Assembly (NCBI GenBank): GCA_009930495.1
Contig: RZYB01000002.1
Span: forward strand, 1 to 64,000
Source of the DNA: Deltaproteobacteria bacterium
Lineage (GTDB): Bacteria > Desulfobacterota > Desulfovibrionia > Desulfovibrionales > Desulfomicrobiaceae
Length of the DNA: 64,000 bases
Reading direction: 5' to 3'
Part shown: piece by piece, positions 3,600 through 62,032 of the stretch
Numbering within the stretch: position 1 is the first letter of the stretch
Layout of the letters: each line of letters opens with the position of its first letter
Notes under the pieces: generated by a model
Seen by the model: only the letters and a program-made list of their open reading frames with translations
Told to the model about the DNA's origin: nothing
Database searches by the model: none
Position numbers and translations under genes: made by a program

Positions 3600-4472
3600 T
3601 CACGAGCATTCGGGCAGGGCCAATCCAAGGGCTGCGCGGCGTTCCTTCATGCGTTCCACCAGCCGGTAGGACGGACGCAGGCCTCCTTTGCCCCGGCCCA
3701 GGGCGATGTTGGGCTTGTTGTCGCCGTGGAAGTCCGAGCCGGCGCTTTCCAGCAGGTCGAGACGCCGGCACAAGTCGGCGTAGACCGTGGTCTGGGCCTG
3801 GGTGTGCATGGAATAGTAGACCTCCATCCCGTCCAGGCCCCAACCCTTGAGCTCCCGCAACACGTTCTCCAATCCCCCTTCGTCCAGATGCAGGGTGCAG
3901 GGATGGGCCAGGATGACCGTGCCTCCCTCGGCCTTGAGCAACTCGATGGCCTGACGTGGATCGAATTTTTCCTTGGGCGCGTAGCCCTTGGTGCCGGGGC
4001 GTAGCCAGGATGCGAAGGCGTCGCGCATGTCCAGGGCGTGGCCCTTGCTCACCAGAAGTTGGGCGATGTGCGGCCGGCCGATGGTGCCACCGGCGGCGGT
4101 GCGTTCCAATTCATCGTAGGTGATGGCCACGCCGTGGCTGTTCAGGTTGTGGATGATGGTTTCGTTGCGGGTTTTGCGCAGCCGGGTCAGCGTGTCCAGG
4201 CTGGCCTGAAGCCGGATCGGACGCAGGGGCAGCCACAGACCCAGGATGTGCATGCTGCCCTTGGGAAAATTGACGCTCAGTTCACAGCCGCCGATGACTT
4301 CGATTTTCCAGGCGCGGCCGGCCGCGCAGGCTTCCGGCAGCCCCTGGATCGTGTCGTGGTCGGTCAGGGCCATGGCCCGAAGGCCCATGGCCGCAGCCTG
4401 GGCCACCAGCTCGGACGGCGTCAGGGTGCCGTCGGAGGCGGTGGAGTGGGTGTGCAGATCGATTTCTGGCAT
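3600..4472 (-). CDS. PHP domain phosphoesterase (RNase AM / TrpH type)
   Basis: A 290-residue metal-dependent phosphoesterase of the PHP superfamily. The metal-binding motifs are intact: HTHSTASDG at residues 7-15, TDHDT at about 37-41, the IGGCELS stretch, an AHP motif around residue 190 and GSDFHG near 252. This arrangement matches the YciV/TrpH group, in which E. coli RNase AM trims the 5' ends of small RNAs and digests short oligonucleotides. It lies directly upstream of the U32 gene, hinting at a joint RNA-related role. The start is the ATG preceding the first metal motif by six residues, as usual in the family. Substrate is inferred from homology only. Confidence 0.87.
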   Translation of the reverse strand: MPEIDLHTHSTASDGTLTPSELVAQAAAMGLRAMALTDHDTIQGLPEACAAGRAWKIEVIGGCELSVNFPKGSMHILGLWLPLRPIRLQASLDTLTRLRKTRNETIIHNLNSHGVAITYDELERTAAGGTIGRPHIAQLLVSKGHALDMRDAFASWLRPGTKGYAPKEKFDPRQAIELLKAEGGTVILAHPCTLHLDEGGLENVLRELKGWGLDGMEVYYSMHTQAQTTVYADLCRRLDLLESAGSDFHGDNKPNIALGRGKGGLRPSYRLVERMKERRAALGLALPECS

Positions 4473-4587: not shown

Positions 4588-4806
4588 TTATTTGAAGCGG
4601 TAGGTAATTCTGCCCCGGGTCAGGTCATAGGGAGAAAGCTCCACCTTGACCCGGTCGCCCGGAAGGATGCGGATGTAGAATTTGCGCATTTTGCCAGAGA
4701 TGTGCCCCAGTACCTGATGACCGTTTTCCAGGCGCACCAGAAACATGGCGTTGGGCATGGCTTCCTCGACAATACCTTCGACTTCGATTGACTCTTCCTT
4801 GGCCAT
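4588..4806 (-). CDS. infA: Translation initiation factor IF-1
   Basis: Full-length 72-residue IF-1, a single S1-type OB-fold that binds the ribosomal A site with IF-2 and IF-3. It begins [11 protein letters not shown] and contains the family hallmarks [20 protein letters not shown] and the C-terminal LTRGRITYR. The open frame continues upstream, but the length and N-terminus of the family fix the start at 4806; AAGAAGG lies about 12 bases upstream. It stands alone here, not in a ribosomal protein operon. Confidence 0.97.
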
Positions 4807-5146
4807 ATAAGACGGATACCTTCTTTGTTTACAGGAGTTTTGATTCAAAGACGCAAATTCATACCCGCTTGAAAGTGAAATGACAAGCTTCGAAATTTCT
4901 CCCCAACCGATCCCGAGGCATGGATCAGGGGCCGATGCGCACGGGTCCGGCATCCCATCCTGGCCGTGGCCTCGTGGGGGCGCTTGTGCCCGGAGAAGGA
5001 AATACCCTCGAATTTTTGAAGCCGGAGCGGACACGCGGTTTTCGTCGAAAATGGACTTGCCTGTTCCCGCCCTTGCCTCCTAGGTCTTGGGCGGCTCGGC
5101 GCCGCTGGCGCCCTTTTTTGAACCTTTTCACGTGAGGACGATCTTC
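4807..5146. other. Intergenic region between divergent infA and the HAD gene
   Basis: About 340 bases separate infA (minus) from the HAD gene (plus), so promoters for both must lie here, but I could not pick convincing -35/-10 pairs. It contains a hairpin with a T run at 5098-5119. No coding frame in it looks real. Confidence 0.5.
5098..5119 (+). terminator. Hairpin plus T-run upstream of the HAD gene (terminator or attenuator)
   Basis: GGCGCC repeated around a 3-base loop, then C and six T residues. There is no plus-strand gene upstream to terminate, so it may act as an attenuator in the leader of the following gene or be fortuitous. Confidence 0.35.
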
Positions 5147-5803
5147 ATGAAATATAAGGCAGTTGTTTTCGATATGGATGGCACCCTGCTCGACACCCTG
5201 GATGACTTGGCGGATTCCATGAATCGGGTCCTGGTCCGGAATCATTTACCGACCCATCCCGTGGCGGCGTATCGCGAGTTCGTGGGCAGTGGCGTGAAAC
5301 AGCTGGTTCATCGCGCCCTTCCTTCCGAGGTCCGCGACAACGAGGGCGTGGCGGACGCCTGCGTGCGTGGATTTCTGGACGAATACGAAGCCAACTGGAA
5401 TGTGAAAACAGGACCTTACGCGGGCATTCCCGAGCTTTTGGACAATCTTGTGGCCCGGAACATGCCCATGGCGGTGCTGACCAACAAGCCACAGGATTTC
5501 GCGGACCTGTGCATGCAACGATTTCTGGGGAACTGGCCCTTTGCCGTGACCATGGGTCAGGTACCCGGCGTGCCGGTCAAGCCTGATCCGGCCGGAACCT
5601 GGCGCTTGATCGAGCGTTTGGCGGTGCGCCCCGAGGAAATCGCCTATCTTGGCGACACGGATGTGGATATGCGCACCGCCGTCAACGCGGGCATGTTTCC
5701 GGTGGGCGTTCTGTGGGGCTTTAGGTCGGAAGGGGAGTTGCTGGATTCCGGCGCGGCCGCGATCATCGGGCATCCCCTGGACGTGCTGCGCCTTTTGAAC
5801 TGA
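5147..5803 (+). CDS. HAD-superfamily phosphatase, phosphoglycolate phosphatase-like
   Basis: A 218-residue haloacid dehalogenase-type hydrolase. The catalytic motif I is FDMDGTLLDT (nucleophile Asp near residue 9), followed by an alpha-helical cap; motif II is LTNKP, motif III the lysine in VKPDP, and motif IV YLGDTDVDM. Length, cap type and the GTLLDTLDD opening match Gph-like phosphoglycolate phosphatases, which remove the 2-phosphoglycolate formed in DNA repair. Related enzymes with other sugar-phosphate or pyrophosphate substrates look similar, so the substrate is not certain. The ATG at 5147 is preceded by GAGG at a normal distance; an earlier in-frame start at 5087 lacks one and would run through the hairpin. 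Confidence 0.85.
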   Translation: MKYKAVVFDMDGTLLDTLDDLADSMNRVLVRNHLPTHPVAAYREFVGSGVKQLVHRALPSEVRDNEGVADACVRGFLDEYEANWNVKTGPYAGIPELLDNLVARNMPMAVLTNKPQDFADLCMQRFLGNWPFAVTMGQVPGVPVKPDPAGTWRLIERLAVRPEEIAYLGDTDVDMRTAVNAGMFPVGVLWGFRSEGELLDSGAAAIIGHPLDVLRLLN

Positions 5804-5932
5804 ACGCCGGATTGGGCGTGTCGGCTGCTTTTCGTCCGAGGCCGTGGGCTCTTTGGCTGGCACGCGTGGCCGGGAGCCGGATGGATGCGCCGATTCGGAC
5901 ATGGGTCCGAAAAACCGGGATGGTGCCCACGG

Positions 5933-6814
5933 CTAGAGCAGGTTGGGCATGCGTCCCGGTCCGGTCGTGTCCAGGACGCGTGCGTCCAGAAGTTCGTCCA
6001 GCTCTTCCAGGAGGCGGCCCCGGTCCGTTGGCAGACGCCCGGCCAGGGGCAGGATGTTCGAGACATGGTCCGCCCTGAACACCGTTTGGCGGAGGTTTAG
6101 CGCCGCGAGCAGGTCGCGCAGCTCCCGCGCGGCCTCCGCCTCGGACAGGAGGGCAAAGCGTCCGGCCTGGATCCACGCGGACAGCGGCGTCTTGGGGATG
6201 GGAACAAGACGCAGACAGGAGAGCAGCCGGGGTTGCATGGCATTCAGGGCCAGGGCCGTGTCGCGGACATGGGCGGCCGAGGCGGCGCGTCCGCCAAGGC
6301 CCAGGAGCACCATGACCGAAACCGAGATTCCCGCCATCCGCATCCTTTGGGCGCCATCGATCATGCACGCGGCCGAAGTGTTCTTGGCCATGCGTTTCAG
6401 GATGTCCTCGCAGCCACTTTCCAGACCAAGGTACACCGTGCGCAATTTGGCGGCGCGCAGCGCGTCCAGGTCGTGATCGCTTTTGGCGGCCATGGCCCGG
6501 CCCGAGGCGTAGCACGTCACCCTGGACAGTGCCGGAAAGTGCTGGTCCAGCTGCTCCAGGATGGTCAGCAGACGTGGCGTGGGCAGGGCCAGGGCGTCGC
6601 CGTCGGCGAGAAACACGCGTCGGGCCAGGGGTTTCGCGCGCGCGGCCTGGGCAATGGCGCGGGCCGTGTCCTCGGGCTCGTGGACGCGGTAGGGCACGCC
6701 CCGGTACATGGCGCAGAAGGCGCAGGCGTTGTGCGGGCACCCGTCGGCCACCCGGATGAGCACGCTATCGTGCTCGGCCGGTGGGCGGAACATTTGGTGT
6801 TGGTGTGCGGACAT
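5933..6814 (-). CDS. Radical SAM protein with CX4CX2C cluster motif
   Basis: A 293-residue radical S-adenosylmethionine enzyme. The cluster-binding cysteines are in DGCPHNACAFCAMY near residues 25-38, spaced CX4CX2C rather than the textbook CX3CX2C. The usual SAM-binding features follow: the acidic VFLADGDAL strand, YLGLESGCEDIL (GxIxGxxE-like) near residue 125, and a strand with LLGLGG. No second Fe-S domain is obvious. The group with the CPHNxCxFCxMY signature is widespread in anaerobes but I know of no characterised member. Its start lies inside the 3' end of the upstream histidine kinase gene (50-base overlap), so the two are probably co-transcribed. Confidence 0.82.
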   Translation of the reverse strand: MSAHQHQMFRPPAEHDSVLIRVADGCPHNACAFCAMYRGVPYRVHEPEDTARAIAQAARAKPLARRVFLADGDALALPTPRLLTILEQLDQHFPALSRVTCYASGRAMAAKSDHDLDALRAAKLRTVYLGLESGCEDILKRMAKNTSAACMIDGAQRMRMAGISVSVMVLLGLGGRAASAAHVRDTALALNAMQPRLLSCLRLVPIPKTPLSAWIQAGRFALLSEAEAARELRDLLAALNLRQTVFRADHVSNILPLAGRLPTDRGRLLEELDELLDARVLDTTGPGRMPNLL

Positions 6815-8696
6815 GGGCGGTTTGCGCGGTGTAGGGTTTAAGAATCTTGACCAGATCCGCCTTGGCCACGGGCTTGGGAAGATGGCCGTTCATGCCCACT
6901 TCCAGGAAGCGCGCCGTGTCCGAGGCAAAGGCATGGGCGGTCATGGCGATGATGGGGATGCTTCCTCCCTTGTCCTTGGGCCAGGACCGGATGATGGTGG
7001 TAGTCTGGATCCCGTCCATTTCGGGCATCTGGATGTCCATGAGAACCAGGTCGAAGTTATCCGAGGCCAATTTTTCCAGAACCTCCTTGCCGGTCATGGC
7101 CAGGGAGCCGTGATGGCCGAGAGATTCCAGGAATTTGAGGGCGACGGTGCTGTTGATGGGATTGTCCTCGGCCACCAGCACGTTCAGGCTGTGCTTTCCG
7201 GGCATGGCCAGGGGCGCTGTTTCGGGTTTGGCCGGGTTTTCGAGTTTGGCCGGAGGGGATGCCAGGGGCAGAAGGACATAGAAGGCCGTTCCGAGTTCGT
7301 CGGATTCAAAAGCCATGGATCCGTTGAGTAAAACCACCAGCTGGTGGGTGATGCTCAGGCCCAGGCCCGAGCCGCCGAATTTTCTGGTCTGGGTGGAGTC
7401 GGCCTGGGAAAAGGGCTCGAAAAGGCGGTCTTGGGCTTCGGGTGGGATACCCACGCCCGTGTCGCGGATTTCGATGAAAATGCGGTGCTCGCCCGGTCGC
7501 ACGGGCGAGAGCAGGGACATGGACACGTCCACCCGACCGTGCGGGGTGAATTTGACCGCGTTGCCGATGATGTTGGTCAGGATCTGGCGGATGCGCACCG
7601 TGTCTCCGAACAGATATCCGGGCACGGCCGCGTCCACGGCGATGTCCAGGACAAGGCCCCTGTCCAGGATCACGGCCTGAAAGCTGTCGTCGAGGTCCTG
7701 CATGAGCGCGCGGGGACTGAATGTCTCCGCGATCACGGGCATGCGCGAGGCCTCCAGCCGGGACAGATCGAGGATGTCGTTCAAAAGGCGTAGCAGGCTC
7801 TTGGCCGACTGCATGGCCGCCTGCAGGTAGCGTTGGTTGTCGGCCGGATCGGGGCTGTCCATGGCCAGTTGCAACATGCCCATGATGCCGTTCATCGGAG
7901 TGCGGATTTCATGACTCATGTTGGCCAGGAACTGGCTTTTGGCCCGGGCCGCCGTCTCGGCGTCCTCCTTGGCCTGGGACAGTTTTTGCTCGGCCGTCCG
8001 GCGTTCCTCCACTTCCAGACTGAGCTGGGTGAAGGTGTCGAGCAGGTTTTCGCGCATGTTTTCCAAGGCGGCGGTGACCTGGTCCAATTCGTCGTTATGA
8101 TTGTTTTTGCGCAAGATAATGGGACGACGCAGGTTCGTGGGCGAAAGATCCATGACCTGGTTGGCCAGGGCGCCGAGGTGGCGGCCGATGAGATGGTGGA
8201 ACAGGGCGATCAGGGCCGCCGCCAGGGACAGCGCGACCACGCTTTGGGCCGACAGGGTGCTCAGAAATTCCTGGCCAATTTGTTTTTGTAACGGGTCCAG
8301 GGACGCCGTGACCGAGAGCTGCCCAAGATGATAGGGCTGGCCGTTGAAGGCGTGGATGAGCTGGAAGTCGCGGTGCAGAAGATTTTTGCCGGTCATGGCG
8401 CCGGCTTCGGCGATGACCGTGCCGGATTGCGTGATCCTGGCGTGGATGAAGTTGGGCCGCTGGATCAGGCCCTGGAGCTGGATGGCGAGCAGATTGGAGT
8501 CGAGTTGCCACAGGCTGGCGGTGATGCCCTTCAAGTCGGAAGCAGCCACGTGGTCCAGGGTGTTTTTCAGCGTGGCGACATCATGACGATATTGATGAAA
8601 GAGTTGCAGGCCGGCCAGGAGGGCGCTCATGACCACGCTCAGCAGGCAGGCCGAGATGATGAGCCTGGAACTCAAGCTGCGACGGGTCGTGGACAT
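6765..8696 (-). CDS. Membrane-bound hybrid sensor histidine kinase
   Basis: A 643-residue kinase. Order of domains: N-terminal membrane helix (about 10-32), a periplasmic sensor of roughly 110 residues, a second membrane helix (about 145-170), a HAMP-like linker and coiled coil, then the dimerisation/phosphoacceptor helix with FLANMSHEIRTPMNG (His262). The ATP-binding domain carries GNAVKFTPHG, IRDTGVGIP and the G-rich GGSGLGLSI box. A receiver domain ends the protein; its phospho-acceptor is Asp554 in LVLMDIQMPEMDG. Upstream in-frame starts at 8783 and 8756 exist, but the ATG at 8696 has AAGGA 7 bases before it and begins a normal membrane anchor. No partner response regulator gene is adjacent; the downstream radical SAM gene overlaps its end. 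Confidence 0.92.
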   Translation of the reverse strand: MSTTRRSLSSRLIISACLLSVVMSALLAGLQLFHQYRHDVATLKNTLDHVAASDLKGITASLWQLDSNLLAIQLQGLIQRPNFIHARITQSGTVIAEAGAMTGKNLLHRDFQLIHAFNGQPYHLGQLSVTASLDPLQKQIGQEFLSTLSAQSVVALSLAAALIALFHHLIGRHLGALANQVMDLSPTNLRRPIILRKNNHNDELDQVTAALENMRENLLDTFTQLSLEVEERRTAEQKLSQAKEDAETAARAKSQFLANMSHEIRTPMNGIMGMLQLAMDSPDPADNQRYLQAAMQSAKSLLRLLNDILDLSRLEASRMPVIAETFSPRALMQDLDDSFQAVILDRGLVLDIAVDAAVPGYLFGDTVRIRQILTNIIGNAVKFTPHGRVDVSMSLLSPVRPGEHRIFIEIRDTGVGIPPEAQDRLFEPFSQADSTQTRKFGGSGLGLSITHQLVVLLNGSMAFESDELGTAFYVLLPLASPPAKLENPAKPETAPLAMPGKHSLNVLVAEDNPINSTVALKFLESLGHHGSLAMTGKEVLEKLASDNFDLVLMDIQMPEMDGIQTTTIIRSWPKDKGGSIPIIAMTAHAFASDTARFLEVGMNGHLPKPVAKADLVKILKPYTAQTAHVRTPTPNVPPTGRAR

Positions 8697-55058: not shown

Positions 55059-58000
55059 TTAGCCGCGTTGACGTGGCGGATGCGCGGCGCCCAACTGCTC
55101 CAATCCTTGAAGATACTCGTCCGAATGGTCCAGGTAGAAAGCCAGGGCCTTGGAAAAATTCTTTCCGACCAATCCATCCACGAACAGTTGGCTGATCTCA
55201 CGGTAGCGTTTGAGCACGAATTGTGATCGGTAGAAAATCAGCCATTCCTCCTGGGTCATGCTGCCAAGCAGTATGGACAGGGCTTTTCTGGCCCGTGGTT
55301 GGTACATCCAAAAATACATCAGATCCAACCCATTGACGATAAAGACCTGTTCGAGATCCCGGGTTTCATAGTTGATGGTTTCGATGAACATTTTGGGCGA
55401 CCGCAGCATGTCCAGCACGTCCTCTTCCGGAAAAAGAACGTCCAGTCGGGCAAAGGCGTCGAACATGAGGATGAGTTTGGCGTGGTAGTCGGTCAGGCGC
55501 ATGCGCACGTTGTTTTGGCGATCGGCCAGGCCTTCGATGACCGCGGCCACGCAGTCCGAGGCCAGCTTGGAAATCACGGCCGCCCATTTTTGCAGAGCCT
55601 GTTCGACTCCGGGAATGGCGGCCATGTGCATGGCGCCGGCCAGGCCGGCGTTGAAAAGGACCGCCAGGGGAATGGACAGAATGCTCCGGAAGAAATTGCC
55701 CACGGCCGCGCTCCGAGGCAGCCCGCGCACGATATTGTGGCTTGAGATGTAGATGCCATTGGCCAGGGCCATGACCGCATAGAGGGTTATGGGATCGGTC
55801 GCGGTGGTTATGCCCAGGCCTTTTTCCATCAACAGGCTTTTGACCAAAAAGTCGAGCAGGGGAACGGAAAAGCCCGTGTACAGCAATGATTCCGAGATAC
55901 GGCTCCAGCTGACCAGGGAGTTCCATTGCAGCAGTGGAGAGCGCCGTAATCCGCCACCTCCCAGCACCGCCTGGATGATGTTGCGCACGCCCGTGATGCC
56001 GAACCAGATGAAGCCGCCCAGGTAGGCCAGCACCCACCAATCCTTGGTCAGGGCAAAGGTCAAAAAAGCCGGCACGAACCCGACCAAAATTTTGAGACAA
56101 TTCTTGAACGCCGTGTTCAGATATCTGCAGCCCAGGCGACTTTTGATTCTGGGGGTGTCCGAAGCCTCGATGCGCAGTCCGTTGTCGTGGCAGGTCTGGA
56201 CCCCGCCCAGGGTAAGGATGTTGCCTGGATGTCCCGGATGGATTTCGATCCGGTCCAGGCTCCAATCGACGCGCGAATCCTGGCCATTCATGTCGAGGCC
56301 GGGACAGCGTGCCAGCAGACTGGCGAAACATGACCGATCCGCGCTGGCGCCAAGCCGCGTCGAGGAGCGGGCCGTCATGCGGGCCGTGACGGGTATGAGC
56401 CGGCGTTGGCCGGGCTGCTGCCGGGCTTTTTCCCGTGCCCGGGCGGGCAGGGTGTCGATCACGACCAATCCCATGCCGTGCTGGTGGCGGGACTGGCCGG
56501 TGGAGCCGCTGCCGATGCGTGATTCCAGGGGGCGTTTTTTGTAAAATTTGTGGAAGGACTCGATGTCGAACAGAATATCGAGCAGCTTGGCCTTGCGTTC
56601 ATTCATGACCGCCAGGGCGTGTTCGAGTTGCGGCACGAGGTTGGCGTCCTCCCCGGCCCTGGCCACCGCCAGGTTTTTCTCCAAGGTCAGGCGGTCTTCC
56701 TCGTGGGCCCAGACCACGGTCCGGATGGCCCGCTTCAAGGCGATGACGTTTTCTTCGTTCAGCGCTTTTTGCAGGGCCGAGACCTGGGCAAAAGTCCGCT
56801 CTGGGCTGATGAGTTCCACGGCGTCCCCGGGGCAGACGCGTGGCGCGTTGACGGGGAAGGACCATTTGCCCCGCGAGGCGTCCTTGAGATTGTAGACTTC
56901 CAGGTGGCTGACATGCCCCCGGCAATCGTACAGAATCTCCAGGGTATCGGGGATGCTCAGATTGCTCAGGTTGAGGGTGAAACGCGAGCCGGAATGGAAT
57001 CGGGCCAGTCGCGGCAGAAGCTGGCCGGGTTCCAGATGCAGGATGGCGGGCACGTCCGGCCCGTTTTGTGGCGTGGTCGGATCGTGCAGGTCCGGATTGC
57101 GGCAGGGCTGCAGATAGGCCGAGATCAGCATTTCGGAATCGATGGCGTTCAGGCCGTCGACCAGCTGCGTCAACTCCTGGCGTCTTTCCGGCCTGGCCCG
57201 GGGATACTCCTGGCGCATTCGCTCCACGGCCTGCTTCAATTCCGGGAGCATGAGACTTTGGATGTACTTGGCCAGGTGCAGCAAGGAGGGCTGGCCGGTG
57301 CCGACAAACCGGGTGAATCCGGCTTCGTCCAATTCGGGCAGGTTCATGCCGTATTCGTCGTTGAGTGTCTGGCGGTGGCGCTGGTTGAAGGCGGCCAGGG
57401 CCTGGAACACGTACCGTTGCTGATAGGCCGAGACCTGTCTGCCGTCCTTCATGAAGTCCATGACCGGCTGTTCTTGCAGAAACTCCAGAAAGGATTGGCT
57501 GTCCGTGAATCCATGCGGTTCCCAGGTGATGCGCACATATTTTCCCCGGAAACGCGCCGAGACTTCGATGCCGATGCGGATATGCATGTCCAGGATGGCC
57601 GCCGCCTCAAGCAATTCCTCGACCACGGCCGGTTCGACATAGTTGTAATACACCACGGTCAAATAGCGGATACCCTTGACCCAGGCGTCCATGACCAGGT
57701 GGGTGGGGGATTTGCGGCCCTTGGTGTTGGCGTCGTGGACATGGTCGTCAAAGGCCAGCTGGTTCCATTCCTCGGGCATTTCGAGCAAATGGTATTTGTC
57801 CAGTTCGGCCCGCACCACGCGGGGCTTTCCCGCCGCGGCCATGCGGAAGTCGTGGGCCAGCTGGAGCTGCTTGAGTTCGTCGTCCGGATGGCGGATCAAT
57901 TCCTTCATGATCTGGATCAGGACCCGGGCCGTGTTTTTACGCAGATAGGTCGTGGCCGAATGCAGGACTTCATCCATGAGGCTGCGCAGGGCGCCGAGTC

Positions 58001-58229
58001 GGTCCGAAGCCTTGCCGGCCTCGAGCGATCCCAACAGGCCGACGATGGCGTAGGCGATCCGCAATCCCTTGGGCGCGGCCATTTCCTTGATTCCATGCGG
58101 GTGCATGTAGGGCGCCAGCAGGGAGCTCATGGTCTGGGGACGCGTGCTCCGGGTCAGGACGTCGTTGACGATGCGCAAAAGCTGGTGATCGTTGTTGTCG
58201 AAGAAGAGGCGGGAATGGACGTGTTTCAA
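55059..58229 (-). CDS. Large membrane protein with PHP-like N-terminal domain, function unknown
   Basis: A 1056-residue protein. Residues about 1-150 are helical. Residues 160-245 look like a PHP phosphoesterase module: DDHVHD (162-166), a helix, GIRYLTVVYY where TDH is expected, and IGIEVSA (219-225), so some metal ligands are missing. The middle (250-700) is mainly soluble helices. Four or more membrane helices lie at about 712-900 (ILVGFVPAFLTFAL, WWVLAYLGGFIWFGITGV, ALANGIYISSHNIV). The start is TTG, one base after the stop of the response regulator, with GGCGAGAAC before it; a later ATG at 58130 is the fallback. I do not recognise the full-length family. Coupling to the regulator suggests a shared role. 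Confidence 0.72.
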   Translation of the reverse strand: MKHVHSRLFFDNNDHQLLRIVNDVLTRSTRPQTMSSLLAPYMHPHGIKEMAAPKGLRIAYAIVGLLGSLEAGKASDRLGALRSLMDEVLHSATTYLRKNTARVLIQIMKELIRHPDDELKQLQLAHDFRMAAAGKPRVVRAELDKYHLLEMPEEWNQLAFDDHVHDANTKGRKSPTHLVMDAWVKGIRYLTVVYYNYVEPAVVEELLEAAAILDMHIRIGIEVSARFRGKYVRITWEPHGFTDSQSFLEFLQEQPVMDFMKDGRQVSAYQQRYVFQALAAFNQRHRQTLNDEYGMNLPELDEAGFTRFVGTGQPSLLHLAKYIQSLMLPELKQAVERMRQEYPRARPERRQELTQLVDGLNAIDSEMLISAYLQPCRNPDLHDPTTPQNGPDVPAILHLEPGQLLPRLARFHSGSRFTLNLSNLSIPDTLEILYDCRGHVSHLEVYNLKDASRGKWSFPVNAPRVCPGDAVELISPERTFAQVSALQKALNEENVIALKRAIRTVVWAHEEDRLTLEKNLAVARAGEDANLVPQLEHALAVMNERKAKLLDILFDIESFHKFYKKRPLESRIGSGSTGQSRHQHGMGLVVIDTLPARAREKARQQPGQRRLIPVTARMTARSSTRLGASADRSCFASLLARCPGLDMNGQDSRVDWSLDRIEIHPGHPGNILTLGGVQTCHDNGLRIEASDTPRIKSRLGCRYLNTAFKNCLKILVGFVPAFLTFALTKDWWVLAYLGGFIWFGITGVRNIIQAVLGGGGLRRSPLLQWNSLVSWSRISESLLYTGFSVPLLDFLVKSLLMEKGLGITTATDPITLYAVMALANGIYISSHNIVRGLPRSAAVGNFFRSILSIPLAVLFNAGLAGAMHMAAIPGVEQALQKWAAVISKLASDCVAAVIEGLADRQNNVRMRLTDYHAKLILMFDAFARLDVLFPEEDVLDMLRSPKMFIETINYETRDLEQVFIVNGLDLMYFWMYQPRARKALSILLGSMTQEEWLIFYRSQFVLKRYREISQLFVDGLVGKNFSKALAFYLDHSDEYLQGLEQLGAAHPPRQRG

Positions 58230-58230
58230 G

Positions 58231-58656
58231 TCAGTTCTCGCCGACGGTCCCGTTTTCGTTCTGTTTCCTGTCGCCCCGGTCGCGCAGGGTTTTTTTGCGG
58301 AAGGCGTCCTCCAGTTTGTAGAGCAGATCCTCGAAATCCGCTGGCTTCATCAGGTAGTCGAAGGCCCCGCCGTCCATGCCTTCCACGGCGGCCTCGACGC
58401 TGGCATGCCCGGTTAGCATGATGACCTCGGTGTTGGGCCATTGGTCCTTGATGCGCTTGAGAACCTCCAGGCCATCCATGCCCGGCATTTTGACATCCAG
58501 AACGACCACGTCACGAGGGAATTCGGCCATGAGTTCCAGGGCCTGCTCGCCACGGGTGGCGCCGACGGCCTCGATGCCGCGCTTGGTCAGGCGCTTGATG
58601 ATGGTGCGTAGGAATTCTTCCTCGTCATCGACCAGCAAGACAGAAAATGTTTCCAT
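58231..58656 (-). CDS. Single-domain response regulator
   Basis: A 141-residue receiver-domain protein. The acidic pair is in VLLVDDEEEFL, the phospho-acceptor is Asp54 in VVVLDVKMPGMDG, and the Thr/Ala and Lys positions are in VIMLTGHASVE and YLMKPADFEDLL. A charged tail of about 20 residues follows, but no DNA-binding output domain. GGAGT seven bases before the ATG at 58656. Just downstream is the 1056-residue membrane protein. The cognate kinase is not in the immediate neighbourhood. Confidence 0.9.
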   Translation of the reverse strand: METFSVLLVDDEEEFLRTIIKRLTKRGIEAVGATRGEQALELMAEFPRDVVVLDVKMPGMDGLEVLKRIKDQWPNTEVIMLTGHASVEAAVEGMDGGAFDYLMKPADFEDLLYKLEDAFRKKTLRDRGDRKQNENGTVGEN

Positions 58657-58873
58657 GCGTACTCCGGAAAAGAAAGGTTTCGTGGACATGACGCCGTGAC
58701 GGGGTGTCTGGAACGGGCCCTCGTGGACGTGGCCCGGATTCGCCGGGATCACGGGGAGCGAAGCATACATTGGCTTTGACTTCAATCCCTTCGGCCAGGG
58801 AAAATAACCTTGAATGCACCAACCCGTCCACCCCCGGCCTTGACCAGCCGCCTTCCAGGGATCAAGGAAGGGC

Positions 58874-60244
58874 ATGGCGAAAAATGGAACCACCCTGGCC
58901 CCGGCATCCACCGAAGCCATCCTGGAAAGCATTTCCGATGGCGTGTTCACCGTGGATTCGAGCTGGCGCATCACGTTTTTCAATCGGGCGGCCGAGGAAA
59001 TCACCGGCGTGCCCAAATCCGAGGCTCTGGGCCGGCTGTGCTCGGAAGTTTTTCGGTCCAGTCTGTGCGGCGACGACTGCCCGTTGCAACGCACCCTGGC
59101 CAGCGGGCGGCCGATTATCGGCTCGTGTGGGTATATCGTCACCGCCCAGGGCGAACGGCTGCCCATCAGCGTGTCCACCGCCGTGCTCCGCGACGAGACC
59201 GGCCGTGTCATCGGCGGCGCCGAAACCTTTCGCGACCTGTCCGAAATCGACGCCCTGAAGCGGGAGCTCGAAGGGCGCTATCATGTCGGCGAGCTGACCA
59301 GCCGCAGTCCGCGCATGCATCGGCTGTTCGGGGTTTTGCCGGCCATCGCGGCCAGTCCGAGCACTGTGCTGATCACCGGGGAGACGGGCACGGGCAAGGA
59401 GCTTTTCGCGAGGACGATCCATTCCCTGAGCCCCCAGGCCGGCGGCCCCTTCATTGCCGTGAATTGCGCGGCCCTGCCCGACACCCTGTTGGAGTCCGAA
59501 TTGTTCGGGCACAAGGCCGGAGCCTTCACCGGGGCGATTCGGGATCGTCTGGGACGCTTTGCCCAGGCCCGGGGAGGGACCATCTTTCTGGATGAAATCG
59601 GGGAAATCAGCCCGGCCTTGCAGGTCCGCCTGCTGCGCGTGGTGCAGGAGCGCACCTTCGAACCTCTTGGGGCGTCCAGGACCGAAACCACGGATGCCCG
59701 GATCATCGCGGCCACCAACCGCAACTTGCCGGATCTGATCCGTTCGGGAGAATTTCGGGAGGATCTGTATTACCGGATCAACGTCGTCCGCTTGGAGCTG
59801 CCTCCCCTGCGTGAACGCAAGGAGGATATCGCCCTGCTGGTCGATCAGTTTATCCGGCATTTCAACCAGATCCAGAACCGCGCCGTGCCCGGCATTGATT
59901 CCGAGGCCTTGTCCCTGTTCATGGCGCACCATTGGCCGGGCAATATCCGCGAGCTGGAGAACGCTGTCGAAAGGGCGTTTATTCTTTGCGGCCGGGACCG
60001 GATCGGTATCGCCCATTTGCCCGAGGAACTGGCTCCCGCCGCGCGCCACGAGCATGCCGATCAATTGGACACGGCCCACGACTTGCTCGATATCCAGGCG
60101 ATTCAGGAAGCCCTGGAGCGGAACGGTTTCAATCGACTGGCCGCGGCGCGCGAGCTTGGCATTCACAAGACCACGTTGTTTCGGCGCATGAAGCGTCTGG
60201 GTATGACCGCCCCGGCTCGGGATGGCCGGAGTCATCGGGAATAG
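58874..60244 (+). CDS. Sigma-54-dependent activator with PAS sensor
   Basis: A 456-residue enhancer-binding protein. PAS domain at about 12-125, including a cysteine pair (SLCGDDCPLQ near 65-72) that may bind a metal or sense redox. The AAA+ domain has Walker A GETGTGKE (169-176), the sigma-54 contact loop GAFTGA (216-221) and GGTIFLDEIGE. A Fis-type helix-turn-helix ends it (NRLAAARELGIHKTTLFRRMKRLG). AAGGAAGGG precedes the ATG. A good sigma-54 promoter lies 124 bases after its stop and faces the NifX-like operon, its probable target. This arrangement resembles the orp regulator of Desulfovibrio vulgaris. Confidence 0.93.
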   Translation: MAKNGTTLAPASTEAILESISDGVFTVDSSWRITFFNRAAEEITGVPKSEALGRLCSEVFRSSLCGDDCPLQRTLASGRPIIGSCGYIVTAQGERLPISVSTAVLRDETGRVIGGAETFRDLSEIDALKRELEGRYHVGELTSRSPRMHRLFGVLPAIAASPSTVLITGETGTGKELFARTIHSLSPQAGGPFIAVNCAALPDTLLESELFGHKAGAFTGAIRDRLGRFAQARGGTIFLDEIGEISPALQVRLLRVVQERTFEPLGASRTETTDARIIAATNRNLPDLIRSGEFREDLYYRINVVRLELPPLRERKEDIALLVDQFIRHFNQIQNRAVPGIDSEALSLFMAHHWPGNIRELENAVERAFILCGRDRIGIAHLPEELAPAARHEHADQLDTAHDLLDIQAIQEALERNGFNRLAAARELGIHKTTLFRRMKRLGMTAPARDGRSHRE

Positions 60245-60295
60245 TAGCCGTGGCGCTCTCGCGAAGGAGATCGAGGGTGCGGGGATGCAACGCTT

Positions 60296-60321
60296 CCCGC
60301 CTCTGGCGGGGTCGGATTTTT
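60296..60321 (+). terminator. Possible terminator after the sigma-54 activator gene
   Basis: CCCGCC and GGCGGG form a short hairpin with a TCT loop; a run of five T residues follows after six bases. The gap weakens the case. Confidence 0.4.
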
Positions 60322-60367
60322 GAAAAAAACGGCCCGGGGTCTTGTTTGTGGTTTTTTGGGATTTCAG

Positions 60368-60383
60368 CGGCACGGTCCATGCT
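60368..60383 (+). promoter_or_regulatory. Sigma-54 promoter of the NifX-like operon
   Basis: CGGCACG-GTCC-ATGCT matches TGGCACG-N4-TTGCW with the essential GG (60369-60370) and GC (60381-60382) exactly ten bases apart; only two positions of the consensus differ. It lies 27 bases before the next ATG and just after the activator gene. Confidence 0.75.
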
Positions 60384-60409
60384 TTTTGGTGTGACCATGA
60401 GGAGTTTTC

Positions 60410-60955
60410 ATGCCGCGTATAGCCATTCATGTCTGGCGGAACCGGGTCGCCCCTGTCTTTGACACGGGCGGGCGGATTCTGATTTTGGCCGATCAGCCGG
60501 AAGACGGCACCCTGAACTGTCCACAGCCCGCGTTGCGCGCCGAGGAAATGGTCGGATTGGGGGTCGATACCCTGATCTGCGGGGCCATTTCCCGGCCCAT
60601 GCACGAGGCGCTCATGGCGCGGGGCATCCGTGTTGTCGGTTTCGTGGCCGGAGACGTGGAGATGGTGGTCGCGGCGTGGAAGAGCGGCGGCTTGGACGAA
60701 CGTTTTGCCATGCCCGGCTGTCGGGGCATGGGGTTTGGGCGTGGCCGCCGGCGCGGGGTTGATTCCCGAATAAACCGCGAATCACGGAGGATGTCATGCC
60801 ACGAGGAGATGGAACAGGACCACGGGGACTCGGGCCTCAAACCGGACGCGGCGCCTGGCTATGCACGGACCCGGATCAGGGGACGACGAGCCAGGGACTT
60901 GGCGTCGGCGCGGGCTTCGGACTTGGACGGAAACGGGGATTCTGTCGACGGATGA
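60410..60955 (+). CDS. NifX/NifB-type (dinitrogenase iron-molybdenum cofactor) domain protein, orange-protein-like
   Basis: The first 110 residues form a NifX/ORP-like domain (MPRIAIHVWRNRVAPVFDTG, LGVDTLICGAISRPMHEAL, RGIRVVGFVAGDVEMVV), a fold that holds metal-sulfur clusters; the D. gigas orange protein carries a Mo-Cu one. A Gly/Arg-rich stretch (CRGMGFGRGRRRG) follows, as usual in this family. The frame then runs on for about 65 more residues that overlap the DUF5320 gene by 160 bases and look non-native. The two other frames would have stopped at 60762 and 60773, so a frameshift or a recently lost stop is likely. Functional length is probably about 120. Confidence 0.78.
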   Translation: MPRIAIHVWRNRVAPVFDTGGRILILADQPEDGTLNCPQPALRAEEMVGLGVDTLICGAISRPMHEALMARGIRVVGFVAGDVEMVVAAWKSGGLDERFAMPGCRGMGFGRGRRRGVDSRINRESRRMSCHEEMEQDHGDSGLKPDAAPGYARTRIRGRRARDLASARASDLDGNGDSVDG

Positions 60956-61095
60956 CTCCTGGGGCGGGCTGGGCCGAACCGACGCCGCCCTCGGCCCCGA
61001 CCGTCGAGGCCGAGGCACTGCAAGCCAGGGTGCGCCAGCTGGAGCAGGAACTTGCGACCGTGGCGACTCGGTTGCGAGAAATCGATAACAAATAA
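60796..61095 (+). CDS. DUF5320 protein
   Basis: A 99-residue protein with the characteristic opening MPRGDGTGPRGLGPQTGRGA, a Gly-rich middle and a C-terminal coiled coil (EALQARVRQLEQELATVATRLREI). DUF5320 genes are commonly found beside NifX-like and Mrp/NBP35 genes in anaerobes. GGAGG seven bases before the ATG is strong evidence for translation despite the overlap with the upstream frame. Function unknown. Confidence 0.87.
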   Translation: MPRGDGTGPRGLGPQTGRGAWLCTDPDQGTTSQGLGVGAGFGLGRKRGFCRRMTPGAGWAEPTPPSAPTVEAEALQARVRQLEQELATVATRLREIDNK

Positions 61096-61120
61096 CAGGT
61101 AACAGGCATCGAGGAATCGA

Positions 61121-62032
61121 ATGGAGAACATGGAACACAGTGGGGCGCCCAAGGCCAGTGCGTGCGATTCGTGCAAGGATGGTTCGTGCTCGGCTTCCAA
61201 ACGCCAGACCGGAGAGAACGACAGGGACTTCGAGGAACGTCGGGCCCTGCAATCGAGATTGTGTCATATCAAGCATAAAATCATGGTCATGTCCGGCAAG
61301 GGCGGAGTCGGCAAGAGCACGGTGGCCGTGAATCTGGCCATGGGACTCATGCTGGCTGGCAAGAAAGTCGGCCTGTTGGACGTGGACATTCACGGACCCA
61401 GCGTGCCGACCATGCTTGGCCTGGAAGGAGCCACCATCGAGAACGGCCCGGACGGTCTGCTGCCGGTGGAGCTGGGCAATTTGAAGGTCATGTCCATGGG
61501 CTTTTTGCTGCGCAATCCCGATGACGCGGTGATCTGGCGTGGACCAATGAAGGGTCAGGTCATCCGGCAGTTCTTGTCCGACGTGGCCTGGGGGGAGCTG
61601 GATTACCTGATCATCGACGCGCCTCCAGGAACGGGTGACGAGCCCTTGTCCGTGTGCCAGCTCATCAAGCCCATCGATGGAGCAGTGGTCGTGACCACGC
61701 CGCAGCGCGTGGCGGCCATGGATGTCCGCAAGTCCATCACGTTTTGCGCCCAGGTGGGGATGAAGGTGTTGGGTGTCGTCGAGAACATGAGTGGGTTTGT
61801 CTGTCCGAAGTGCGGCGAAGTGACCCAGATTTTGCGTTCCGGCGGCGGCAAGGCCATGGCCGAGGACATGGGCGTGCCCTTCATGGGCTCCATCCCCATT
61901 GATCCCCAAATCGCCGTGGCCGGAGACGAAGGACAGGCTTTTGTCATGCACTATGCGTCGAGTCCTTCCGCGGAATTGATGCGGGCGGTGGTCGAGCCCT
62001 TGCTGCATCTTCCCGATCCCAAGGCTGTTTAG
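61121..62032 (+). CDS. Mrp/NBP35-family Fe-S cluster carrier ATPase
   Basis: A 303-residue P-loop ATPase. An N-terminal cysteine cluster (ACDSCKDGSCS) precedes the deviant Walker A MSGKGGVGKST near residue 58, DVDIHGPSVPTMLG, IIDAPPGTGDEPL and the bridging CPKCGE motif at about 227-230, which holds a [4Fe-4S] cluster between subunits. It should load or transfer clusters to apo-proteins. In orp operons a homologous MinD/Mrp-type ATPase accompanies the orange protein. It follows DUF5320 by 25 bases. Confidence 0.93.
   Translation: MENMEHSGAPKASACDSCKDGSCSASKRQTGENDRDFEERRALQSRLCHIKHKIMVMSGKGGVGKSTVAVNLAMGLMLAGKKVGLLDVDIHGPSVPTMLGLEGATIENGPDGLLPVELGNLKVMSMGFLLRNPDDAVIWRGPMKGQVIRQFLSDVAWGELDYLIIDAPPGTGDEPLSVCQLIKPIDGAVVVTTPQRVAAMDVRKSITFCAQVGMKVLGVVENMSGFVCPKCGEVTQILRSGGGKAMAEDMGVPFMGSIPIDPQIAVAGDEGQAFVMHYASSPSAELMRAVVEPLLHLPDPKAV

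Follow-up and report, generated by a model that had tools for sequence, protein, structure and literature searches.

A stretch of 64,000 nucleotides (hereafter the window) from contig RZYB01000002.1 of a deltaproteobacterium of the family Desulfomicrobiaceae encodes on its minus strand a receiver-only response regulator of 141 residues (58231..58656) and, directly downstream of it, a 1056-residue membrane protein (55059..58229), here called the large protein, whose residues ~158-595 form the RNase AM/TrpH type of the PHP phosphoesterase fold, as found by AlphaFold2/Foldseek structure comparison, reciprocal tblastn searches and profile comparison. Most of the metal ligands of this fold have been replaced throughout the family of the large protein, and the replacing residues are strongly conserved. 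We tentatively propose that the large protein serves as a pseudo-PHP receptor or scaffold anchored in the membrane, to which a phospho-switch has been connected in the Desulfomicrobiaceae, an explanation that we consider possible while falling somewhat short of probable. Irrespective of its role, the large protein represents an undescribed family, and no system of such a layout is described in the papers searched, in keeping with what the initial annotation of this DNA had supposed; a search for publications on PHP domains that have membrane parts or occur in Desulfovibrio likewise returned nothing relevant.

PHP fold, metal site and membrane domain of the large protein

The AlphaFold2 model of the large protein, computed from a 56-sequence alignment, has a predicted local distance difference test score (pLDDT) of 81 and a predicted template-modeling score (pTM) of 0.79. 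When it was compared with the PDB using Foldseek, the top matches were the PHP phosphoesterases 3o0f, 3e0f, 9etk (Vibrio cholerae RNase AM) and 2yb1 at a probability of 1.00, with E values of 1.1e-5 to 3o0f and 1.2e-4 to 9etk and template-modeling scores on the target of 0.51-0.59. At the sequence level, a tblastn search with the large protein as query recovered a canonical PHP gene of ~299 residues (E value 7.8e-5) and, reciprocally, a canonical RNase AM homolog recovered the large gene of the window (E value 3.4e-4). A comparison with hhalign matched the large protein to PHP over 135 columns (E value 3.2e-5), including part of the inserted helical domain, where GQPSLLHLA of the large protein is aligned with GRPHIAQ. 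These results bear out the PHP-like domain suspected in the initial annotation. Searches with family models yielded no such match: the Pfam PHP model had no hit in 42 members of the family, the RNase AM models were missed by a wide margin (NF047791, 12.9 bits against a cut-off of 375; NF041577, 15.3 against 400), and the C-terminal half of the PHP core gave no signal by profile alone.

The best relatives in both structure and sequence are thus the RNase AM/TrpH proteins (YciV; NF047791, RNase RNM; NF041577, 3',5'-nucleoside bisphosphate phosphatase), with which the large protein shares the inserted helical domain; however, these are soluble enzymes of ~290 residues with nine metal ligands, whereas the large protein has lost six of them and carries ~700 extra residues including the membrane domain. 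In the model an N-terminal helical region without a match in any library (residues 1-157; 57759..58229) precedes the N-terminal half of the PHP core (residues 158-242; 57504..57758), which is followed by the inserted helical domain typical of RNase AM/TrpH PHPs, delineated from the model and hhalign (residues 243-400; 57030..57503), and by the C-terminal half of the core (residues 401-455; 56865..57029), whose motifs were assigned from strand order and not from sequence score. Beyond a long, poorly conserved helical insertion seen in the model (residues 456-562; 56544..56864), the last PHP strand (IGSGSTG) with a GMG motif was likewise assigned from strand order (56445..56543). The same window encodes a canonical PHP phosphoesterase of the RNase AM/TrpH type (3600-4472, minus strand; 290 residues), in which DLHTH, ASDG, TDHD, AHP and GSDFH are all present and which served as the reference for the lost ligands; since this canonical gene exists separately, the large protein was rejected as the RNase AM ortholog.

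Conservation of the ligands was counted in 78 members of the family against the canonical series H, H, D, H, E, H, H, D, H, the last three positions (AHP and GSDxH) being assigned from strand order in the model. The DDHVHD (D161-D166) and IGIEVSA (from I219) motifs occur in PHP order, as first noted, and include the three retained ligands, H163 (70/78), H165 (78/78) and E222 (71/78). The aspartate of the ASDG motif is replaced by K170 (77/78) and the histidine of TDH by Y195 within Y194-Y195-N196, both Y195 and the following N196 being present in every member (78/78 each). The histidine of the third motif corresponds to about R233, beside which W236 is kept in 77 of the 78; the AHP strand (RFTLN) has no histidine; and at the GSDxH position the window protein has G575 where 39 of the 78 members have aspartate, with T577 (75/78) taking the place of the last histidine. 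In the window protein about six of the nine ligands that characterize active PHP/RNase AM enzymes are therefore absent. The initial annotation had correctly read the TDH ligands as missing, which understates a loss that extends to most of the site and to the whole family.

The surroundings of the lost ligands are under evident constraint: D161, D166, R172, K173, H177 and D181 are invariant in the N-terminal half of the PHP domain, E444, N447 and K449 are near-invariant on the HLEVYN strand, and K170, Y195, W236 and T577, which lie at or beside lost ligands, exceed random positions of the domain in conservation (p 0.0007). We rejected recent decay of the PHP domain because the replacements are family-wide, and the description of the domain as eroded has to be dropped for the same reason. 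The simplest reading of these sequences is that the metal site changed once, early, and was then held, which would make it a remodeled pocket under selection. The family is thereby a clear case of an enzyme fold that remains under strong selection after the loss of most of its metal site.

C-terminal to the PHP domain lies a small, weakly conserved beta region recognized from the model and conservation (residues 596-700; 56130..56444), and then a membrane domain (residues 701-900; 55530..56129) for which hydropathy peaks, the model and the positive-inside rule indicate about six helices between residues ~706 and 900, matching the several membrane helices first noticed. The positively charged loops 757-776 and 833-845 are predicted to be cytoplasmic, and therefore so are both ends of the protein, including the C-terminal helical region seen in the model (residues 901-1056; 55062..55529). 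No segment of the large protein is better conserved than the membrane domain, which contains 33 near-invariant polar residues, a degree of polar conservation that exceeds the needs of a mere anchor. A separate model of residues 700-1056 (pLDDT 87) has no relative in the PDB by Foldseek (best E value 0.49), and this region has no supported Pfam or NCBIfam family and no significant PDB sequence match.

Distribution of the family and pairing with the response regulator

A scan of one genome per species recovered 394 candidate stretches encoding relatives of the large protein, the best 80 of which are full-length or nearly so, 48-72% identical and mostly in one uninterrupted frame. The large gene is real and intact, and is not a chance frame, because full-length homologs occur in dozens of species and the block with the DHVHD and IGIEVSA motifs is among its best-conserved parts. 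Residues ~570-700, with their odd-looking composition, were considered as a frameshifted stretch and rejected as such, the homologs being collinear in one frame there. Among 199 sampled Desulfovibrionales genomes 163 carry the large protein, as do 33 of 297 genomes of the phylum, and several genomes have two copies. As first supposed, it is widespread in sulfate reducers; the range first considered for it, the Desulfovibrionales, is correct as far as it goes and too narrow, as the family extends to the Desulfobulbales, Desulfobacterales and relatives of the Syntrophales. A divergent member of 954 residues (L111; 26% identity) shares the common layout and likewise lacks the metal ligands. No match to the large gene was found among plasmid records. 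In scans of the window protein and of 42 members no Pfam or NCBIfam family scored above its cut-off, and PDB sequence searches with a single sequence and with profiles gave nothing significant. Thus, a protein of ~1,000 residues found in about four fifths of the sampled Desulfovibrionales genomes has so far escaped the domain databases and the descriptions we searched, and its membrane domain lacks a structural relative.

As the initial annotation had it, the receiver-only protein (open reading frame 58234-58656, with a TGA at 58231-58233) ends one base before the 3.2-kb large gene, which runs from a TTG at 58229, the sole start codon near that position in the window, to a stop at 55059-55061. 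In relatives the large gene starts with GTG, ATG or TTG, mostly ~15-30 bases past the stop of the regulator, and a short intercistronic gap is the rule for the pair. The regulator is an intact receiver-only response regulator: PF00072 covers residues 6-115 of its 141 (E value 1.1e-30), D10, D11, D54, T82 and K104 are all present and invariant in 19 of 19 distinct orthologs, and there is no output domain. It thus resembles CheY, Spo0F and DivK in being a single receiver with intact phosphorylation residues, but differs in that its partner comes from an undescribed family and that the window has no kinase gene next to it.

Regulator and large gene are neighbors in every one of the 16 genomes of the window's genus, which is probably Desulfomicrobium to judge from its best named relatives. 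The same holds for three genomes of a sister genus (L184-L186), whose large proteins are 51-54% identical to that of the window. The genes upstream of the pair vary by species, several having comEC-like genes (named by eye) there and L191 and the window having different ones, and the pair stays together. In a tree, the paired large proteins form two groups within one larger clade. The pairing is restricted to these two genera: beside the large gene of other genera in this family (L187, L188) there is no receiver, nearly all remaining loci lack an adjoining regulator, and no neighbor conserved across all loci was found. The predicted conservation of the pair therefore stands for the window's genus and its sister only. 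Homologs lacking the neighboring regulator had been named at the outset as the observation that would tell against control by it, and this is what is seen outside the paired lineage, so that such control is not supported as a general feature; indeed, as most homologs have no adjacent receiver, the regulator cannot be essential to the function of the large protein.

Other contexts recur around either gene. A PPDK-like gene follows the regulator and the large gene, in this order, in the sister genus, and its ortholog in the window's genus is located elsewhere (contig C59 of G000). This order resembles the Desulfovibrio vulgaris 'nitrate cluster' DVU0251-DVU0245, which affects nitrate resistance and encodes a kinase, a receiver-only regulator, a PPDK_N/PEP-utilizer protein and a phosphatase-fold protein (PMC4001038); the likeness is one of analogy and not of membership, as the phosphatase-type member there has a dual-specificity phosphatase fold and the large gene is not described there. 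Relatives of the regulator in other families occur, without the large gene, in clusters of a dCache kinase, two or three receivers and a PPDK_N/PEP-utilizer protein, some with a TauE transporter. Such clusters, seen in L198 (3699-11410; with a TauE/SafE transporter and a PPDK_N and PEP-utilizer protein of 869 residues) and also in L196, L197 and L200, are home to the nearest relatives of the regulator and are similar in make-up to the nitrate-resistance cluster DVU0245-DVU0251. Among other Desulfovibrionaceae, L202, L203 and L205 have the large gene divergent beside receivers, with kinase and PPDK-like genes nearby, and L204 has PPDK-like, kinase, receiver, kinase and large genes in one direction, the last two overlapping by 4 bp.

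Glycerophosphodiesterase (GDPD) genes flank the large gene in three separate placements, lying immediately downstream of it in L044, L052 and L057 and immediately upstream in L111. The third placement comprises L033, L192 and L193, where TRAP transporter genes (named by eye), a GDPD-like gene and the large gene follow one another in one direction, a series that spans Desulfovibrionaceae and Desulfocapsaceae, together with adjacent GDPD and large genes in G438 and G440.

A possible mechanism and competing explanations

Under the explanation that we favor, the metal site of an RNase AM/TrpH-type barrel would have been replaced in the family ancestor by a conserved basic and aromatic pocket formed by K170, R172, K173, Y195 and N196 beside the retained H163, H165 and E222. 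The most likely ligand of this pocket is a phosphorylated small molecule or a partner protein, bound without multi-metal hydrolysis, and the ligand state would be relayed to the strongly conserved membrane domain as the probable effector; the sensor or scaffold role first suggested for the large protein may hold in this sense. There is precedent for PHP as a protein-binding platform: in Escherichia coli the epsilon subunit is bound by the PHP domain of DnaE1 (DNA polymerase III alpha), and conservation of the metal site has exceptions in three major proteobacterial classes (PMC3919608). The large protein belongs, however, to a different PHP subfamily, and DnaE1 has neither a membrane part nor a response regulator. 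Receiver-only response regulators act by protein contact. In the Desulfomicrobiaceae the regulator gene is directly upstream and probably on the same transcript; lacking an output domain, the regulator would be restricted to such contact; when phosphorylated, it probably attaches to the cytoplasmic part of the large protein and sets the activity of the latter.

Several observations weigh against this proposal. The C-terminal half of the barrel is tied to PHP by structure, without a sequence match; the retention of H163, H165 and E222, with an aspartate at position 575 in half of the family, leaves room for residual metal binding or catalysis; of the 99 distinct loci inspected, 58 showed no receiver, kinase, PPDK-like or GDPD gene in their vicinity, and therefore a signaling linkage is not a general feature; and genomes of the genus have 33-148 receiver candidates each, so that a lone receiver or kinase neighbor means little. 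The retained ligands might instead belong to a re-tooled enzyme, in which the PHP pocket hydrolyzes a phosphoester with fewer metals, or with lysine, arginine and tyrosine in place of metal ions; the membrane domain would then deliver the substrate or anchor it. The near-invariance of D161, D166, K170, R172, K173, H177, Y195 and N196 is of an enzyme-like degree and the adjacent GDPD genes would fit such an activity, but the window protein lacks six of the nine canonical ligands, K170 and T577 stand family-wide for the first aspartate and the last histidine, and the motifs are absent even from the most distant member (L111), so that we regard it as rather unlikely.

The GDPD genes and the TRAP transporter, together with the membrane domain being the best-conserved part, could also point to a membrane enzyme or transporter acting in glycerophospholipid or glycerophosphodiester handling, with the PHP barrel as a structural platform and the regulator as an occasional add-on. 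Yet the pocket comes close to the membrane domain in conservation, which a passive platform would not require; of the 71 genomes with the large gene, 31 are without any GDPD gene; and the GDPD link was noticed after the fact. Together these points make such a role distinctly unlikely. That the regulator is unrelated to the large protein, belonging to a kinase-receiver-PPDK module and merely sharing the transcript, would accord with the contexts of its nearest relatives elsewhere in the order and with the PPDK-like gene that still follows the large gene in the sister genus. However, the pair is together in all 16 species of the window's genus, where the PPDK-like ortholog is elsewhere, and in other lineages receivers and kinases flank the large gene in differing arrangements, and hence we hold such a lack of any functional tie to be quite improbable.

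Read more boldly, the family could be a new class of bacterial membrane signal receivers core to the Desulfovibrionales, in which a so far unseen membrane fold is coupled to a pseudo-PHP domain that binds a phosphorylated metabolite or a nucleotide second messenger, and which has been wired more than once into kinase/receiver/PPDK phosphotransfer modules; this we consider unlikely. The large protein is in any case a candidate for an enzyme fold turned signaling part, and its pairing with an intact receiver offers a direct handle on the role of a pseudoenzyme. For many receiver-only regulators of sulfate reducers no target is known, and one of them would be assigned if the receptor or scaffold proposal is true.

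Additional observations on the large gene and its flanks

Genus g3 often has two diverged copies of the large gene (L115, L121, L110), one of which has a PPDK-like gene ~4 kb away; in L206 (the G190 locus of L121) a kinase and a receiver lie beyond that gene. In L194, FliR- and FlhB-like genes (named by eye) lie directly upstream of a divergent copy at 5072, in the same direction and with almost no gap. The single-contig genome L191 (G307), of the window's genus, has a large gene (4672-7829, minus strand) split over two frames near residues 759-792, which represents a frameshift, a sequencing error or a pseudogene. No sigma-54 site was found upstream of the regulator in 58657-58873, motif counts in the window being at chance level. 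Divergent from the regulator, 58874-62032 on the plus strand encodes a PAS/sigma-54 activator followed by NifX-like, small glycine-rich and Mrp-like ATPase genes, the latter three named by eye, a set that presumably resembles the orange-protein (orp) clusters of Desulfovibrio.

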